A stretch of DNA of 25,486 nucleotides from a virus: positions 1-25,486 of the IMG/VR virus record IMGVR_UViG_3300046463_000168. One strand, 5' to 3'. The stretch's first letter is position 1. The number at the start of each line of letters is the position of its first letter. Shown here in pieces: positions 20,193 to 25,486 of the stretch. The position numbers and the translations under genes were made by a program. Below the pieces are notes generated by a model. It did no database searches, was not told the origin of the DNA, and saw only the letters and a program-made list of their open reading frames with translations.

Positions 20193-20441
20193 ATGAAGCA
20201 ATGGATCTTCCAGCTGCTGATCGCGCTCGACCAGTTGATGAACGTGTGCAGCACGCCGTTCTCGCGCGATGCCTGGGCCGATGAGACATTCTCGGCGCGC
20301 TGCTGGCGATTGCGACAGAGACAACCGTGGAAAGTGCTAAGGGCCGTCGTTGACGGCCTTTTCTTTTTCACGCCCAACCATTGCGAAGGCGCGTTCCAGT
20401 CCGAAAAGACGCGCGCTTACTCGCCGGTCGAGGAACGCTGA
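20193..20441 (+). CDS. Conserved phage protein (82 aa) with internal hairpin
   Basis: An 82-residue protein beginning MKQWIFQLLIALDQLMNVCS, then DAWADETFSARCWRLRQRQP, VVDGLFFFTPNHCEGAFQSE. The 'ADETxSARxWR...D.LFF..NHC' pattern is common in late regions of phages; I do not know its role. The hydrophobic N-terminus might be a membrane segment. A strong terminator-like hairpin lies in its coding sequence at 20342-20368. Its stop overlaps the start of the next gene (TGATG). Confidence 0.75.
   Translation: MKQWIFQLLIALDQLMNVCSTPFSRDAWADETFSARCWRLRQRQPWKVLRAVVDGLFFFTPNHCEGAFQSEKTRAYSPVEER
20342..20368 (+). terminator. Terminator-like hairpin inside coding sequence
   Basis: GGCCGTC (20342-20348) and GACGGCC (20352-20358) form a perfect 7-bp stem with a three-base loop, followed by TTTTCTTTTT (20359-20368). 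It lies within the gene 20193-20441. It may be a true partial terminator or a by-product of the encoded VVDGLFFF sequence. Confidence 0.5.
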
Positions 20442-22006
20442 TGCCGCTCGCGCCTTTCAAGGAAATGGGCTCGGCGGGCCTGAACCGCGATGTATTCGCG
20501 CCCGACACGCAGCCGAGCGAATGGACCGCCGGCCGCAATCTGCGTTTCCGCGATGGCTATGCGGAGAAGATGCAGGGACATGCAGCGATCTACGGTGCGC
20601 CGCAGGTCCCGCCCTATGCCGTGTTCCCGACGAACGGTGTGGCGGGCCGCTATTGGGTCTACTGCGGCCTCCAGAAGGTCTACGCGGTCCAGAACACGAC
20701 GCACACGGACATCACGCGGCAGACTTCGGGCGCCGATGTGCTCTATACCGGCACGGCAGCCAACAAATGGAATGGCGGCGTCCTGACTGGCGTCCTGTTC
20801 CTGAATAACGGCGTGGACGTGCCGCAGTTCTGGGGCGGCGATCCGGCGGTGAAGATGGCGAACCTCACCGGGTGGCCGGCTGGCTACACGTGCAAGGTGC
20901 TGCGCCCGTTCCGCAACTTCCTGATGGCGCTGAACGTCTCGAATGGTCCGTCCAACTTTCCGACCATGGTCAAGTGGTCGACCGAAGCCGATCCGGGCAC
21001 GCTGCCGGCCACGTGGGACGTTACCGATGCGACGCATGACGCCGGTCAGGTCGATCTCGCTGACACGCCTGATGTGATCGTCGACGGCCTGTCGCTGGGT
21101 CAGAACTTCGTCGTCTACAAAGAGGGCTCGACGTGGCTCGCGCAGTACTCGGGTCAGCCGTACATTTTCAACTTCGCACCTCTCTCGAAGCAGGCCGGCG
21201 CGCTCGCGCAGAACTGCGCAGTCGAGTTCCCCGGCGGCCACGCGGTGCTTACGCAGGGCGACATCGTCGTGGTGGACATCGCGGGCAATGTGACGTCGAT
21301 CGCCGACGCGCGCATTCGCAAGTACCTGTTCAACTCGATCGACTCGACCAACTACGGCAACTCGTTCGCGGTCGCCAACCTGCGCCGCAACGAAATCTGG
21401 TTCTGCGTGCCGAAGATCGGCGCGACGTGGCCGAACATGGCGATGGTCTGGAACTGGAAATCCAACACGTGGGGCACGCGCGATCTGCCGAACGTCTCAC
21501 ACGCGAATTCAGGCGTGATCGTCTACGCGCAGGGCAACTCGTGGCAGGTTCAAACCACGCCATGGAATCTCGAAACGAAGGCATGGGGGCAAAACGAATA
21601 CACCCAGGCAACACCGCGCCTCGTGCTGGCATCGGCCAATGACAACCTGATCTATCTGGCCGACGTCGGCGAAACGTTCGGCGCGGCCGCGATGACGGCC
21701 AACTGTGAAAAGACCGGGATCACGTTTGACGCGCCCGAGCGTCTGAAGCTGATCACGGAAGTGCGGCCGATCATCGACGCGCCGGCCGGGACCGTGGTGA
21801 ACGTCTATGTCGGCGGCCAGACGGATGCCGAGGCGCCGATCACCTGGACCGGGCCATTCCCGTTCACGGTTGGCACATCGCTGAAGGTCGACACCATATC
21901 CGCGCCGTGCGCGCGCTATGTGGGCGTGAAGTTCGAAACCACTGCTATCTGCACGTGGCGCGTGAAGCAGTTCACCGTCAACGCGCAAATGATGGGGCTC
22001 TACTGA
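20441..22006 (+). CDS. Tail hub/stabilisation protein, P22 gp10-like
   Basis: A 521-residue, mostly beta protein. It opens MPLAPFKEMGSAGLNRDVFA then EWTAGRNLRFRDGYAEKMQG, and continues with aromatic strands and repeated Asp-turn motifs (FRNFLMALNVSNGPSNFPTM, SLGQNFVVYKEGSTWLAQYS, ARIRKYLFNSIDSTNYGNSF, MAMVWNWKSNTWGTRDLPNV) that suggest a propeller-like fold. Its place after the adaptor and appendage genes, its size and the 'NLRFRDGY..K' opening fit P22 gp10-type packaged-DNA stabilisation or nozzle proteins. ATG 20441 overlaps the previous stop. The longer frame from 20381 was rejected. The functional name rests on synteny and general likeness. Confidence 0.82.
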   Translation: MPLAPFKEMGSAGLNRDVFAPDTQPSEWTAGRNLRFRDGYAEKMQGHAAIYGAPQVPPYAVFPTNGVAGRYWVYCGLQKVYAVQNTTHTDITRQTSGADVLYTGTAANKWNGGVLTGVLFLNNGVDVPQFWGGDPAVKMANLTGWPAGYTCKVLRPFRNFLMALNVSNGPSNFPTMVKWSTEADPGTLPATWDVTDATHDAGQVDLADTPDVIVDGLSLGQNFVVYKEGSTWLAQYSGQPYIFNFAPLSKQAGALAQNCAVEFPGGHAVLTQGDIVVVDIAGNVTSIADARIRKYLFNSIDSTNYGNSFAVANLRRNEIWFCVPKIGATWPNMAMVWNWKSNTWGTRDLPNVSHANSGVIVYAQGNSWQVQTTPWNLETKAWGQNEYTQATPRLVLASANDNLIYLADVGETFGAAAMTANCEKTGITFDAPERLKLITEVRPIIDAPAGTVVNVYVGGQTDAEAPITWTGPFPFTVGTSLKVDTISAPCARYVGVKFETTAICTWRVKQFTVNAQMMGLY

Positions 22007-22254
22007 TGGCCTATATCCCCGCTCAGCCGCCGTCCGATCCGAAGCAGATCCCGAACTATCTGCAATCCGAGTTCCAGAAGATCGCGCTCGCGCTCGCCGG
22101 CCAGTCGCCCGCTGTTCGCTATGAGCAGCAGGCCGTGCTGCCAAAAAAACCGCGTGAGGGTGACACCGTTTATTTCGCAGCGAACGTTACCGCGCCGTCG
22201 ACTGCGGCTGCGCTCTATCAATATCGGTCCGGTAGCTGGACCAAGATCGCATAA
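22006..22254 (+). CDS. Small conserved tail-region protein (82 aa)
   Basis: An 82-residue protein beginning MAYIPAQPPSDPKQIPNYLQ, with a helix (EFQKIALALAGQSPAVRYEQ), then strands with VYFAANVTAPSTAAALYQYR and a C-terminal WTKIA. This short IPxYL... then LYxYRxGSW layout is widespread directly after gp10-like genes in phages; the function is not established as far as I know. ATG 22006 overlaps the previous stop (TGATG). It is probably a minor virion component. Confidence 0.8.
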   Translation: MAYIPAQPPSDPKQIPNYLQSEFQKIALALAGQSPAVRYEQQAVLPKKPREGDTVYFAANVTAPSTAAALYQYRSGSWTKIA

Positions 22255-22265
22255 GGACTTTCAAC

Positions 22266-22844
22266 GTGAAGAATTTCATCAAAATTGCGCAAGGCGTCGA
22301 CGTCACGCCGTTAGCTCTGCAGCTGCATCAACACCCTGAGTTGTGGAATGTCGATATGGAACGGCTCGGGCCGAATGGGCCTCACCATGACAGCGACGAC
22401 ATTTGGGTCCGATATAACGACAAGACAGAATGGTTGAAGTCTGGCGATTGGTCGACGTTCAATAATGAACACGATCCCGTATGGTATCCGGCTGCATATG
22501 CTTTGCCCGCACTACGGCCGCTCGTGTTCGACTTGGCACGCCGAGTAGAAGCTGAGCGGATCGGTGGAATCTTTATCTGGCGCGTAAAGCCAGGCCACCA
22601 AATCTACCCGCATAAAGACTTCGGCTGGCACGTCGAGTATTACGACAAGTTCAATATCTGCATCCAGTCAGCACCTGGCGCCGCTTTCGTGTACGAGGGC
22701 GAACGGATTGAAGACCGACCGGGTGATGTGCACCGGTTCGTGAATACCGAGAATCATTCTGTGATCAATACGAGCGACCAAGACTATATCGTGATGTGCG
22801 TCTGTCTGAGAGTTCACGATTACGAACGGAGGTACAAGCGGTGA
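22266..22844 (+). CDS. Aspartyl/asparaginyl hydroxylase-like oxygenase
   Basis: A 192-residue protein with the double-stranded beta-helix motifs of 2-oxoglutarate/Fe(II) oxygenases of the aspartyl/asparaginyl hydroxylase type. RVKPGHQIYPHKDFGWHVEY contains the metal HxD pair (His116, Asp118). The far strand PGDVHRFVNTENHSVINTSD contains the second metal His (His164, with His156 nearby), and Arg182 in CLR is a candidate 2-oxoglutarate ligand. The family hydroxylates side chains using O2 and 2-oxoglutarate. The substrate here is unknown; a virion protein or a host factor would fit. It starts with GTG (AAGGA upstream) and overlaps the cupin gene by four bases. Its lower GC (about 47-50 percent in lines counted by eye, against about 58 percent or more nearby) suggests recent acquisition. 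Without motif-level alignment the assignment is good but not certain. Confidence 0.75.
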   Translation: MKNFIKIAQGVDVTPLALQLHQHPELWNVDMERLGPNGPHHDSDDIWVRYNDKTEWLKSGDWSTFNNEHDPVWYPAAYALPALRPLVFDLARRVEAERIGGIFIWRVKPGHQIYPHKDFGWHVEYYDKFNICIQSAPGAAFVYEGERIEDRPGDVHRFVNTENHSVINTSDQDYIVMCVCLRVHDYERRYKR

Positions 22845-23179
22845 CTGCTATTGATCTGGATTCCATATTGGGCGTGATGCACTTTTTCCCGACAGAGGGA
22901 AACCCTGTGTATATGCGCCGGATGCAAGCCAAGGAAGGCCACGTAATCGGTTCGCATCGGCATAACTACGAGCATTACAGCATTTTGTGCCAAGGCCGTG
23001 TGCGCTCAGAGATTGGCGGGCAAGTGCGCGAATACGAGACTGGAGACGTAATCACTATCCCAGCCGGAATTGAACACAAAATTACTGCGCTCACGGACAT
23101 TATCTGGTTTTGCGTGCATGGGACCTCGGAAACTGATCGAGAGAATATCGACGAAGTATTGATTCAAAAAGGGGCTTGA
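22841..23179 (+). CDS. Small cupin-domain protein
   Basis: A 112-residue single-domain cupin. Motif 1 is GSHRHNYEHYSILCQG (His39, His41, with Glu44 or His45 as further ligand candidates) and motif 2 is GDVITIPAGIEHK at residues 68-80, which fits G(X)5PXG(X)2H exactly with His79. These residues should bind a metal ion. The catalytic or binding role cannot be set from sequence; cupins act as oxygenases, isomerases or metal-dependent binding proteins. The GTG start overlaps the oxygenase stop as GTGA, with CGGAGG upstream, so the two products are coupled and probably act on the same process. It lies before the ejection-type gene. Confidence 0.85.
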   Translation: MTAIDLDSILGVMHFFPTEGNPVYMRRMQAKEGHVIGSHRHNYEHYSILCQGRVRSEIGGQVREYETGDVITIPAGIEHKITALTDIIWFCVHGTSETDRENIDEVLIQKGA

Positions 23180-23180
23180 T

Positions 23181-24494
23181 ATGCCAGCAGCTTGGATAGG
23201 CGCGGGTGCAGCGGTGATCGGGGCGGCTGGGAGCCTCTCGGGGGGCGACGGAGGAGGCTCGACGACGAGCACGCAGACGATGAGCCTCGACCCGGCCATG
23301 CACGGAATGCTGTACGGGTTCACGGACAGCACCGGGGCTCAGCATCCGGGCCTCGCAAATAGCACTTACAACATGCAGTGGACCCCGCAGAACGCGGGCC
23401 TCGCGCAGTTCGGCAACGACGCGAATTCATATCTCGGCTCTGGCGCACCCCTTGGCCTTCTCGGCCACTCGCTGAACACCGCGAACGGCATGCTCGGCTG
23501 GAGCCAGCAGACGCCGACGATGAACGCGGCATCGATGCAGGCGGCCGGAATGAATGCGGCACAGGGCAACGCCGCGCAAATCAATGCGCCGAACCAGAAC
23601 GGTATCAACCTGGCTCCGACGTATCAGAACATGCTGAGCGGCGCGTCCGGCAACAACCCGTATCTGAGGGGTCAGATTCAGCAGGGTATCGATCAGGCGA
23701 ACGACGCCTACAACAACTCGATGACCAACGCGACGCGCAACCTGACGCAGAACGTGTTGCCGGGGATCAATTCGGGGGCGGTGGCCGCCGGTGGTTATGG
23801 CGGCTCGCGGCAGGGCATCGCGCAAGGCAACGCCATCGGTCAGTACGGCACCGCGCTCGCGCAGGCAGGCGCGCAGATGGGCATGAACAATCAGGATGCC
23901 GCCGCGAATGCTCAGGCCAACACCTACATGCAGGGTCAGTCGAATGCTCTGTCTGCGCTCAACAACCTGTCGAATCAACAGTATGGCGTGGCGTCGCAGA
24001 ATGCCAGCCTGCAGCAGGGTATGAATCTCGCCAACCTGCAAAACCAGCAGCAGGCGAACGCGACGAATGCCGGCTTCCAGCAACAAGCCGGGCTCACGAA
24101 TGCGCAATTGACGCAGCAGGCGGCGCAGTCCAATCAGCAATCGAACCTCTCGACGAACGCGCTCAACAGTTCGAACGCGCTCGGTGCAATGAGCCAGATC
24201 GGCAGCTTGACCGGCCAGATCTATAACTACGGCTCGACACAGAACGCCTATCCGTTTTGGCAACAGCAGCAGGTCACGAACATGCTTTCACCATTCACCG
24301 GGCTGGGTGGCTCCGTTTCGCAGACCACACCGTATTTCACAAATCCGGTTGGTAATGCGGTCGGGGGCGCGACGGCGGGCCTCGGGCTTTATAACGCCTA
24401 CAAGAATGCGACTGGCTCGTCCAACTCATCGGGCTTCAATCCGTCTTACCAGTCGGCCTATTCCGGCTTCGACGACCCCTCCAATTACGGTTAA
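23181..24494 (+). CDS. Ejection-type internal virion protein
   Basis: A 437-residue protein with a short hydrophobic N-terminus (MPAAWIGAGAAVIGAAGSLS) and a long Ala/Asn/Gln-rich helical body with repeated Q-x-N and NAxNAQ-like elements (for example NAAQGNAAQINAPNQNGINL and NNQDAAANAQANTYMQ). It has no enzymatic motif. Such Gln/Asn-rich proteins after the tail genes in short-tailed phages are internal virion proteins that leave with the DNA and help it cross the envelope. It directly follows the cupin gene (one-base gap) and precedes a second protein of the same general type. Role from position and composition. Confidence 0.78.
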   Translation: MPAAWIGAGAAVIGAAGSLSGGDGGGSTTSTQTMSLDPAMHGMLYGFTDSTGAQHPGLANSTYNMQWTPQNAGLAQFGNDANSYLGSGAPLGLLGHSLNTANGMLGWSQQTPTMNAASMQAAGMNAAQGNAAQINAPNQNGINLAPTYQNMLSGASGNNPYLRGQIQQGIDQANDAYNNSMTNATRNLTQNVLPGINSGAVAAGGYGGSRQGIAQGNAIGQYGTALAQAGAQMGMNNQDAAANAQANTYMQGQSNALSALNNLSNQQYGVASQNASLQQGMNLANLQNQQQANATNAGFQQQAGLTNAQLTQQAAQSNQQSNLSTNALNSSNALGAMSQIGSLTGQIYNYGSTQNAYPFWQQQQVTNMLSPFTGLGGSVSQTTPYFTNPVGNAVGGATAGLGLYNAYKNATGSSNSSGFNPSYQSAYSGFDDPSNYG

Positions 24495-24503
24495 GGAGCG
24501 CAC

Positions 24504-25486
24504 ATGGGACTTCTAGACGGTTTGATGAACGATCCGACGACGCTCGGCCTGCTGTCCGCCGGCACGAACATGATGGCGGCCAGCGGCCCGAGTCGGATGC
24601 CGGTTGGTTTCGGTAGTGTGCTCGCGCAGGGGCTTCAAGGTACGGTCGGCGGGTATCAGGGGGCGATCGATCACCAGTACGATCGCATGTCGAAGGCGCT
24701 GCAGTTGCAGAACCTGCAGTATCAGGCGAACAAGAGCGGCCTGCTGAACAGCATTCTGCAGGGCGCATTTTCGGGGCCGCAGGGAGCACCGGCGCAGGCG
24801 AGCGCGCCGCAGACGCGTGGCACTGGCATTCCGGTGCTCGACGCGGGCGGCATGGCGTCCGGCCCGGATGCATCAGGACCCGGCGTGACCTCGGCACCGG
24901 TTCCCGGCATTGGCGCCGCGGCTCAGGCGCCGCAGGCCGATGTGCCCGCAGCGCCGCAACCTCAGGCCGCGCCCGCTGCCGCACCGCAAGCCGGCGGCCT
25001 GTTCGGCAGCATTCCGACTCAACAGGCAGGGCTCGCGCTCGCGCTATCGCCGGATAAGCTCGTCGACAGCATGCTTGCCCAATACTCGCCGACCGATTTC
25101 CAGAAGCTGCTGCGCGCGTCCGGCATTGATCCCAGCAGCACGCTCGGCAAGCAAATGATTCAGCAACAGGTCGCCAAGCTGAACAACATGCCGCTGCAGG
25201 CGTTTCGCGGTGGTGGCTTTGCGTACAACCCCGCGACAGGGTCGATGCAGCAACTGCCGCAAGTTCCCGAGGGCTATACGGCAGTGCAGGGGCCAAATGG
25301 CTGGCAGATCGTGCCGGTGGCCGGTGCGAACGATGCTATCGCTGCATCTGCTGCGGCGAAGGCGGGCGGTGAGGGTAGCGTCTTGCCATTTTCGGGTGTC
25401 GATGCGCAAGGCAACCCTCTGCCGGTCACGAATCGGACTTCTGCCGCGACCGGGGGCGCATTCGGCAATCAGCCGCCGCCGATCCC
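24504..25486 (+). CDS. Second ejection-type virion protein, cut by window end
   Basis: At least 327 codons, open to the right edge, so the C-terminus is missing. It starts MGLLDGLMNDPTTLGLLSAG, then GGYQGAIDHQYDRMSKALQL, a coiled-coil stretch, a Pro/Ala-rich linker at about residues 90-170, and GGFAYNPATGSMQQLPQVPE. The MGLLDGLxNDP...GLLxAGxxM opening is typical of short-tailed phage internal proteins with long helical bodies. GGAG precedes ATG. It is likely an ejection protein that acts with the preceding gene product, but the missing part prevents a firm name. Confidence 0.78.
   Translation, partial: MGLLDGLMNDPTTLGLLSAGTNMMAASGPSRMPVGFGSVLAQGLQGTVGGYQGAIDHQYDRMSKALQLQNLQYQANKSGLLNSILQGAFSGPQGAPAQASAPQTRGTGIPVLDAGGMASGPDASGPGVTSAPVPGIGAAAQAPQADVPAAPQPQAAPAAAPQAGGLFGSIPTQQAGLALALSPDKLVDSMLAQYSPTDFQKLLRASGIDPSSTLGKQMIQQQVAKLNNMPLQAFRGGGFAYNPATGSMQQLPQVPEGYTAVQGPNGWQIVPVAGANDAIAASAAAKAGGEGSVLPFSGVDAQGNPLPVTNRTSAATGGAFGNQPPPI

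Follow-up and report, generated by a model that had tools for sequence, protein, structure and literature searches.

Exchangeable oxygenase and cupin cassettes predict the first exposed residue of the adjoining phage ejection-type protein

In hundreds of phages, the type of cassette that occupies one slot between the tail-region and ejection genes predicts, as judged from sequence, the first residue exposed at the N-terminus of the ejection-type protein encoded next to it. The cassettes found in this slot are exchanged among phages, residue 2 of the downstream protein follows the cassette, and conservation of that residue is specific to each cassette class. The case considered here is a pair of genes, encoding an oxygenase and a “four-His cupin”, in a 25,486-bp IMG/VR virus record, the whole of which is referred to as the window. 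We would give an even chance to the reading in which the two genes form an exchangeable cassette that matures the first ejection protein at its N-terminus; the N-terminus as the substrate, and the chemistry that would be performed on it, we infer. The relevant features of the window are as follows.

20438 to 22006, plus strand: head-tail hub or stabilisation-type virion protein in a P22 gp10-like position (PHROG 3287, E = 3.8e-113)
22009 to 22254, plus strand: small tail-region gene, 81 aa, directly 5' of the cassette (weak match to PHROG 8092, E = 0.0012; synteny)
22266 to 22844, plus strand: oxygenase, 192 aa, GTG start (PF05118; alignments; AlphaFold2; PDB fold match)
22841 to 23179, plus strand: four-His cupin, 112 aa, GTG start (PF07883; ligand conservation; AlphaFold2; PDB cupin folds)
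23181 to 24494, plus strand: putative first ejection-type protein, 437 aa (sequence; slot homologues)
23184 to 23186, plus strand: Pro2 codon, CCA, for the residue that covaries with cassette type (covariation)
24504 to 25486, plus strand: second gene of the ejection block, running off the window end (position; distant similarity to the same gene in L144, L154 and L106)

The oxygenase and cupin reading frames share the four bases GTGA, as a first-pass annotation of this DNA had reported, and the 437-aa protein, which begins M-P-A-A-W-I-G-A-G, starts 1 nt past the cupin stop. The same annotation had placed the pair in a late-gene slot between tail-region and ejection genes, which the PHROG 3287 gene upstream bears out, with the downstream ejection role drawn from relatives. 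A family search with the 437-aa protein of the window returned no match of its own, and the gene is taken as a putative ejection gene because of where it lies and because, at the corresponding slot of relatives, the gene that follows belongs to PHROG 598 or 21132 (“DNA ejection”; L013, L003) or to PF24072 (T7_gp14; L026). By synteny, the position directly 5' of the cassette is likewise occupied by small genes in relatives.

The oxygenase scores above the curated cut-off for PF05118 (“Asp_Arg_Hydrox”; E = 2.7e-5, 24.5 bits against 22.6), and its relatives score 31-64 bits against the same family. Its HxD...H metal triad lies at His116, Asp118 and His164, where the first-pass annotation had placed these residues, and is retained in 145/145 unique homologues including the window; Arg49 and Lys128 are also conserved in the alignments. 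The AlphaFold2 model is confident (pLDDT 93.9), with L-proline cis-4-hydroxylase as its top fold match in the PDB (4p7w, E = 1.7e-9, TMq 0.66), followed in order by a nucleoside-antibiotic beta-hydroxylase, proline-3-hydroxylase and AspH. Proline hydroxylases are likewise the top match of a sequence profile (E = 8e-6), so that by both sequence and fold the closest solved relatives are the proline cis-3- and cis-4-hydroxylases; the best match in a viral library is a Caudovirales “aspartyl/asparaginy/proline hydroxylase”. L-proline cis-4-hydroxylase (4p7w) and proline cis-3-hydroxylase type II (1e5r) carry the HxD...H ligands in the same order at about 14-17% identity, but their Arg 10 residues past the last His is Tyr174 in the window. 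These solved enzymes also act on free proline rather than on a peptide N-terminus, and action of the window oxygenase on proline is suggested by the Pro2 covariation alone.

The residue at this position, overlooked in the first-pass annotation, bears directly on cosubstrate use. The position 10 past the distal His, usually a 2-oxoglutarate (2OG)-binding Arg, is Arg in most relatives and Tyr in the window and its clade, where Asn130 accompanies Tyr174, giving K128/N130/Y174 (KxN...Y) as against the RxH...R of AspH. The equivalence of Tyr174 with Arg735 of AspH is based on the +10 spacing together with a profile alignment to 1e5r. In AspH, R735 binds the C5 carboxylate of 2OG, the R735Q substitution costs the enzyme a factor of more than 3000 in kcat/Km for 2OG, and the R735W enzyme is inactive with 2OG while accepting some hydrophobic 2-oxoacids (PMC12816917). 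As Tyr174 and Asn130 replace 2OG-binding residues of AspH, cosubstrate use and catalysis in the clade of the window are uncertain, and the oxygenase is best described as a putative 2OG enzyme. The AspH family shares the Pfam match and the fold, yet AspH itself, a hydroxylase of Asp and Asn in EGF-like domains, has only two His as metal ligands, with R688, H690 and R735 around 2OG, whereas the window protein has the full HxD...H, the substitutions just described and no TPR domain.

The cupin is recognized by PF07883 (“Cupin_2”; E = 1e-11, 44.8 bits, curated cut-off 27.2) and has a four-His site composed of His39, His41, His45 and His79. Cupin motif 1, G(X)5HXH(X)3,4E(X)6G, is present with one change, His45 for the usual Glu, and motif 2, G(X)5PXG(X)2H(X)3N, with another, Ala83 for the final Asn; the first-pass description of the second motif as an exact match thus holds for G(X)5PXG(X)2H but not for the textbook terminal residue. 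The ligands are conserved in 100-102 of 102 homologues, a C-terminal WFCVHxTxET motif is conserved too, and the AlphaFold2 model (pLDDT 92.3) matches cupin folds in the PDB. With PF05118 and PF07883 both above their cut-offs and both folds confidently predicted, the structure predictions and family alignments proposed earlier as checks agree with the original assignments; loss of metal ligands in close homologues, which had been named as a result that would argue against an enzymatic system, did not occur in either protein. Four-His Cupin_2 proteins such as TM1459 have in common with the window cupin the fold, the His-for-Glu change in motif 1 and motif 2, but differ in that the window protein has the additional C-terminal motif WFCVHxTxETD and a place in the phage slot.

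Among phage proteins the cupin matches PHROG 24280 (E = 2.7e-12) and PHROG 12032 (E = 3e-12), typified by a protein of Vibrio phage VPMS1. These are clear relatives in the same slot before the ejection gene, but they lack His39 and His79, having instead a ligand-less KR motif that the window cupin, with both His kept, does not share, and their ejection proteins start MS or MA, not MP. Such ligand-less cupins are publicly named “tail fiber adhesin” or “short tail fiber” (PHROG 24280/12032; Vibrio phage VPMS1 MS_018; Xanthomonas phage Elanor). A tail-fibre role for the cupin was considered and set aside, as it rests on the names in the PHROG records, with sequence and position giving it no support. 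A related four-His cupin also occurs in the replication region of Xanthomonas phage Mallos (ON189047; L007:5947-6312), apart from ejection genes, which indicates that the four-His cupin family has other uses.

The first-pass annotation had proposed that oxygenase and cupin form one joint system, and had named a finding that the two are almost always apart as one that would speak against it. The cupin adjoins the oxygenase in 20/20 of the viral contigs first fetched with the oxygenase and, when the best-scoring 80 matches to each alignment query are de-duplicated at 90%, a sampling in which closer relatives are over-represented, at 41 of 44 non-redundant oxygenase loci (38 oxygenase-first, 3 cupin-first). 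The association is not reciprocal, however: in the same sample the oxygenase is adjacent at 18 of 35 cupin loci and absent at 14-16. The joint system therefore stands as a frequent adjacency rather than a requirement, and an obligate two-component enzyme is rejected, since the cupin often has no oxygenase beside it and a related oxygenase has a GNAT acetyltransferase as its partner. At one locus (L136:4234-4992) a 252-aa protein (WSPLCGIELKDVAIYNMEPLYDG...) with no family match lies between oxygenase and cupin.

The two genes travel as a module. Identity to the window is 71-93% for the oxygenase and 59-70% for the cupin in nine other viral contigs (L009-L012, L029, L031, L034-L036), and a Paraburkholderia phenoliruptrix prophage (L174) shares the same range; no other late gene of the window has a homologue at E<=1e-3 in these nine contigs or in L174. 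The sole likeness in the flanks is to the first ~20 residues of the ejection protein in L174 and L099, 85% over 5% of the protein. Prophage copies of the pair are found in both Paraburkholderia and Cupriavidus, among them those of P. phenoliruptrix LMG 22037 (L174) and Cupriavidus basilensis KF708 (L176).

The lower GC content of the pair that had been remarked upon is confirmed, at 0.528 for the oxygenase and 0.500 for the cupin against 0.61-0.66 for the neighbours, with GC3 of 0.63 and 0.55 against 0.70-0.84. GC is below that of the flanks in 82/86 related loci, by a mean of 3.4 points, the window at -11.6 points being extreme. A low GC content is thus general to the pair and partly intrinsic, and alone is no sign of recent arrival. 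Recent acquisition is further weakened as an explanation by synonymous sites that are saturated relative to a 93%-identical copy: compared with L009, the oxygenase has a dN of 0.048 and a saturated dS of 2.4, which marks it as old and under strong purifying selection.

The slot itself accommodates several alternatives to this pair. Oxygenase and GNAT occupy it together in Pseudomonas phage PfAn1 and Limnohabitans phage DC33, GNATs alone fill it in other phages, and a longer cupin without His39 and His79 fills it in VPMS1 and many others. At L078, L086 and L094, sulfotransferase-like P-loop proteins (GLPRSRTAWLA), which PHROG 10855 names hydrolase, replace the cupin and lie ~600 bp 5' of the oxygenase. 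The DC33 record (PQ492659, L004) is assigned to the Inoviridae, a label that looks wrong for a 39-kb genome with a terminase-like protein and an oxygenase and GNAT ejection slot. HNH-endonuclease-like reading frames sit exactly at the junction of cassette and ejection gene in two cases (L091:4592-5060, L282:3400-4000), as if at a landing site. Phage T7 likewise has a small gene, gene 13, between tail gene 12 and ejection gene 14, and its gp14 begins M-C; gp13, however, belongs to a different family (PF11090/PHROG 308) that neither window protein matches. At another locus (L026:4552-5956) a T7 gp13-type gene (PHROG 308) is followed by oxygenase, cupin and a T7_gp14 homologue, so that the pair is no simple replacement for gp13.

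An M-P start of the downstream protein was first noticed at nearly every locus with the pair. For counts of residue 2, loci were fetched also with the ligand-less cupin, GNAT-B and GNAT-E, all were classed by one script, and unique N-termini were counted. Where a four-His cupin is present, with or without the oxygenase, Pro2 is found in 101 of 103 cases, the two others being L091, with its inserted HNH reading frame, and L007 (Mallos), with the cupin elsewhere in the genome. Ligand-less cupins lacking His39 and His79 go with Ser2 (54/68) or Ala2 (11/68) and never with Pro, and a group that the script left untyped, listed beside them, has Ser2 in 13/14. Oxygenase with GNAT-B is associated with Val2 (57/64) or Ala2 (4/64), GNAT-E with Cys2 (52/53) and GNAT-D with Ser2 (4/5). 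Outside the four-His cupin classes Pro2 occurs in 0/205, three oxygenase-only loci (Pro in 2/3) being left aside. Exceptions at L091, L282, L385 and L430 are start-codon miscalls or insertions of HNH reading frames; MG (L004), MT (L179) and MF (L338) seem genuine, and L180, L292 and L414 are further exceptions. Four oxygenase and GNAT-B loci (L505, L509, L510, L414) lack an ATG where the ejection gene is expected to begin; for three of these GTG would be the start (Ala2), and L414 is without an evident start.

The least biased control consists of 80 loci retrieved through a single homologous ejection-protein query trimmed of residues 1-30. Here Pro2 is found in 11/11 with oxygenase and cupin (all MPWGFAA) and in 0/69 otherwise, where the starts are MV, MA, MS or MC. 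Further prophage loci from bacterial genomes, some of which may be in IMG/VR too, give Pro2 in 5/5 with oxygenase and cupin and in 0/16 with a ligand-deficient cupin, and Cys2 in 5/5 with GNAT-E; at one of these prophage loci (L501) a cupin that keeps three of the four His but lacks His79 precedes an ejection protein with Ser2. Pro2 follows the intact cupin even without the oxygenase, and the oxygenase in company with GNAT-B goes with Val or Ala.

Two broad explanations for such a rule are that the cassette products recognize the N-terminus and that cassette and N-terminus are simply carried together. The latter is the main rival, unlikely in our estimation but of real weight: the downstream breakpoint of recombination would fall within the ejection gene, at the onset of homology, the first codons would travel with the cassette, and the enzymes would act elsewhere. 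Passive carriage of this type could also yield a perfect association, the N-terminal motifs are class-specific over several residues, and in transfers within the clade of the window the first ~20 ejection residues are the only flanking stretch still alike. To distinguish constraint from carriage, ejection-protein bodies from residue 36 on were grouped by single-linkage clustering into 22 clusters. The oxygenase and cupin class spans 7/22, one of them being the L091 HNH exception, and the residue-2 rule is valid over several unrelated clusters. One cluster, of 217 members, holds all cassette classes; on a FastTree tree of 214 of these, read by parsimony (clustering, tree and parsimony all being rough), there are at least 53 changes of cassette class, and the cupin/non-cupin and Pro2/non-Pro2 states change 17 times each, against 37 when shuffled. 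Within this family Pro2 occurs in 40/40 with the cupin class and 0/174 otherwise.

Carriage leaves unexplained why position 2 is frozen class by class. Entropy at Pro2 is 0-0.11 bits; at positions 3-14 it is mostly 1.3-2.6. The Pro is encoded by all four of its codons. Overlap of reading frames is rejected as the cause, since in 94/101 the upstream frame does not extend over codon 2. Nor does carriage account for the difference in residue 2 once the cupin loses its ligands. The class-specific constraint on the exposed residue thus points to recognition by a cassette product. Covariation is also seen between the ejection tip and oxygenase residues 130/174, W3 occurring with Arg174 and an aromatic residue 5 with Tyr174 (counts 41/7/0/17), but because residue 174 changes just twice on the oxygenase tree, this coevolution is suggestive only.

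From these patterns the N-terminus of the ejection protein is probably a ligand or substrate of the cassette, by either modification or binding; enzymatic modification of it stands at about evens, and its identification with proline hydroxylation is offered tentatively. The target that had been proposed in general terms, a virion or host protein, is by covariation narrowed to the likely candidate of the N-terminus of the next gene's product. Pro at position 2 permits removal of Met1 by Met-aminopeptidase, as do Ser, Ala, Val and Cys, and these last four, unlike Pro, are typical acceptors of N-terminal acetylation. In the favored mechanism, host Met-aminopeptidase would remove Met1 to expose Pro2, the four-His cupin would recognize the N-terminal Pro and then act on it, and the HxD...H oxygenase would hydroxylate the same proline or an adjoining residue. 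As Pro2 is found in cupin-only phages while the oxygenase also occurs with Val or Ala, the cupin is the likelier reader of Pro, with the oxygenase adding hydroxylation on or near Pro2. The finished tip would lead an Ala-rich hydrophobic segment and might help to protect the ejection protein, to package it or to insert it into the membrane. In other phages the same slot is used for a GNAT, alone or with an oxygenase, or for a metal-less cupin, with tips of Cys, Val/Ala or Ser/Ala; on this reading acetyltransferases would finish the tip where it is Cys, Val or Ser, and cupin and oxygenase where it is Pro. More generally, podovirus-type phages may carry interchangeable N-terminal-modification cassettes for which the residue left after Met removal serves as a code matched to the enzyme (Pro going with the four-His cupin/oxygenase, Val/Ala with oxygenase and GNAT-B, Cys with GNAT-E, Ser with others), a generalization for and against which the case seems to us equally strong.

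Recognition could also proceed without catalysis, the cupin, or an oxygenase or GNAT fold, acting as a chaperone or assembly partner that binds the nascent ejection N-terminus for solubility or for guidance into the head. Metal-less cupins, too, obey a residue rule (Ser/Ala), which implies that not all classes need chemistry for the association; the T7 protein at this slot, gp13, appears in Pfam as a probable scaffold protein (PF11090), and the 2OG-binding residues are altered in the clade of the window. We nonetheless consider pure binding distinctly unlikely, since it would not require a triad kept in every oxygenase homologue or four His that are nearly universal in class-A cupins, and since the acetyltransferases occupying the same slot suggest chemistry.

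Less probable still, and by a wide measure, are auxiliary metabolic or host-directed roles, in which the oxygenase would hydroxylate, for example, free proline or lipid A and the cupin would act on a related small molecule. The lipid A enzyme LpxO belongs to PF05118, and the closest solved enzymes use free L-proline. Phage 2OG oxygenases are usually treated as auxiliary metabolic genes (PMC3037559, PMC9599517); these pelagiphage and cyanophage 2OG-Fe(II) oxygenases are marine-phage 2OG families often found beside a partner gene (ferrochelatase), and the passages that treat them report neither a cupin nor a relation to an ejection N-terminus. Against a metabolic role, the genes considered here lie nearly always in one structural-gene slot, before an ejection-type gene whose residue 2 follows the enzyme type. 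Finally, the Asp/Asn hydroxylation first proposed, in which an AspH-like enzyme with the cupin as partner would modify Asp, Asn or other residues of a virion or host protein, is not favored and seems most improbable: despite the PF05118 score, a fold match to human AspH (5apa, TM 0.61) and the conserved partner cupin, the nearest structures are proline hydroxylases, the KxN...Y set departs from that of AspH, the covarying residue is Pro2, and no Asp or Asn in the ejection N-terminus covaries with the cassette.

The first-pass annotation knew of no described system with this pair in this position, and full-text searches of open-access papers found no report of the pair, the slot content, the cassette exchange or the N-terminal rule. 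The protein families involved are already known, each window protein being a further member; what would be new is the matching of enzyme to tip as a system. Ejection proteins precede all other phage proteins into the host envelope. Should the residue-2 rule stem from modification of their tips, it would assign a function to an entire slot whose genes lack annotation (and, by analogy, to the position of T7 gene 13), it would supply a phage proline-hydroxylase-like enzyme and a four-His cupin with a substrate, and it would correct the “tail fiber adhesin” names given to these cupins in public families. Enzyme and tip swapped together would then represent an undescribed axis in the evolution of phage entry, possibly one that answers differences in host membranes or defences.
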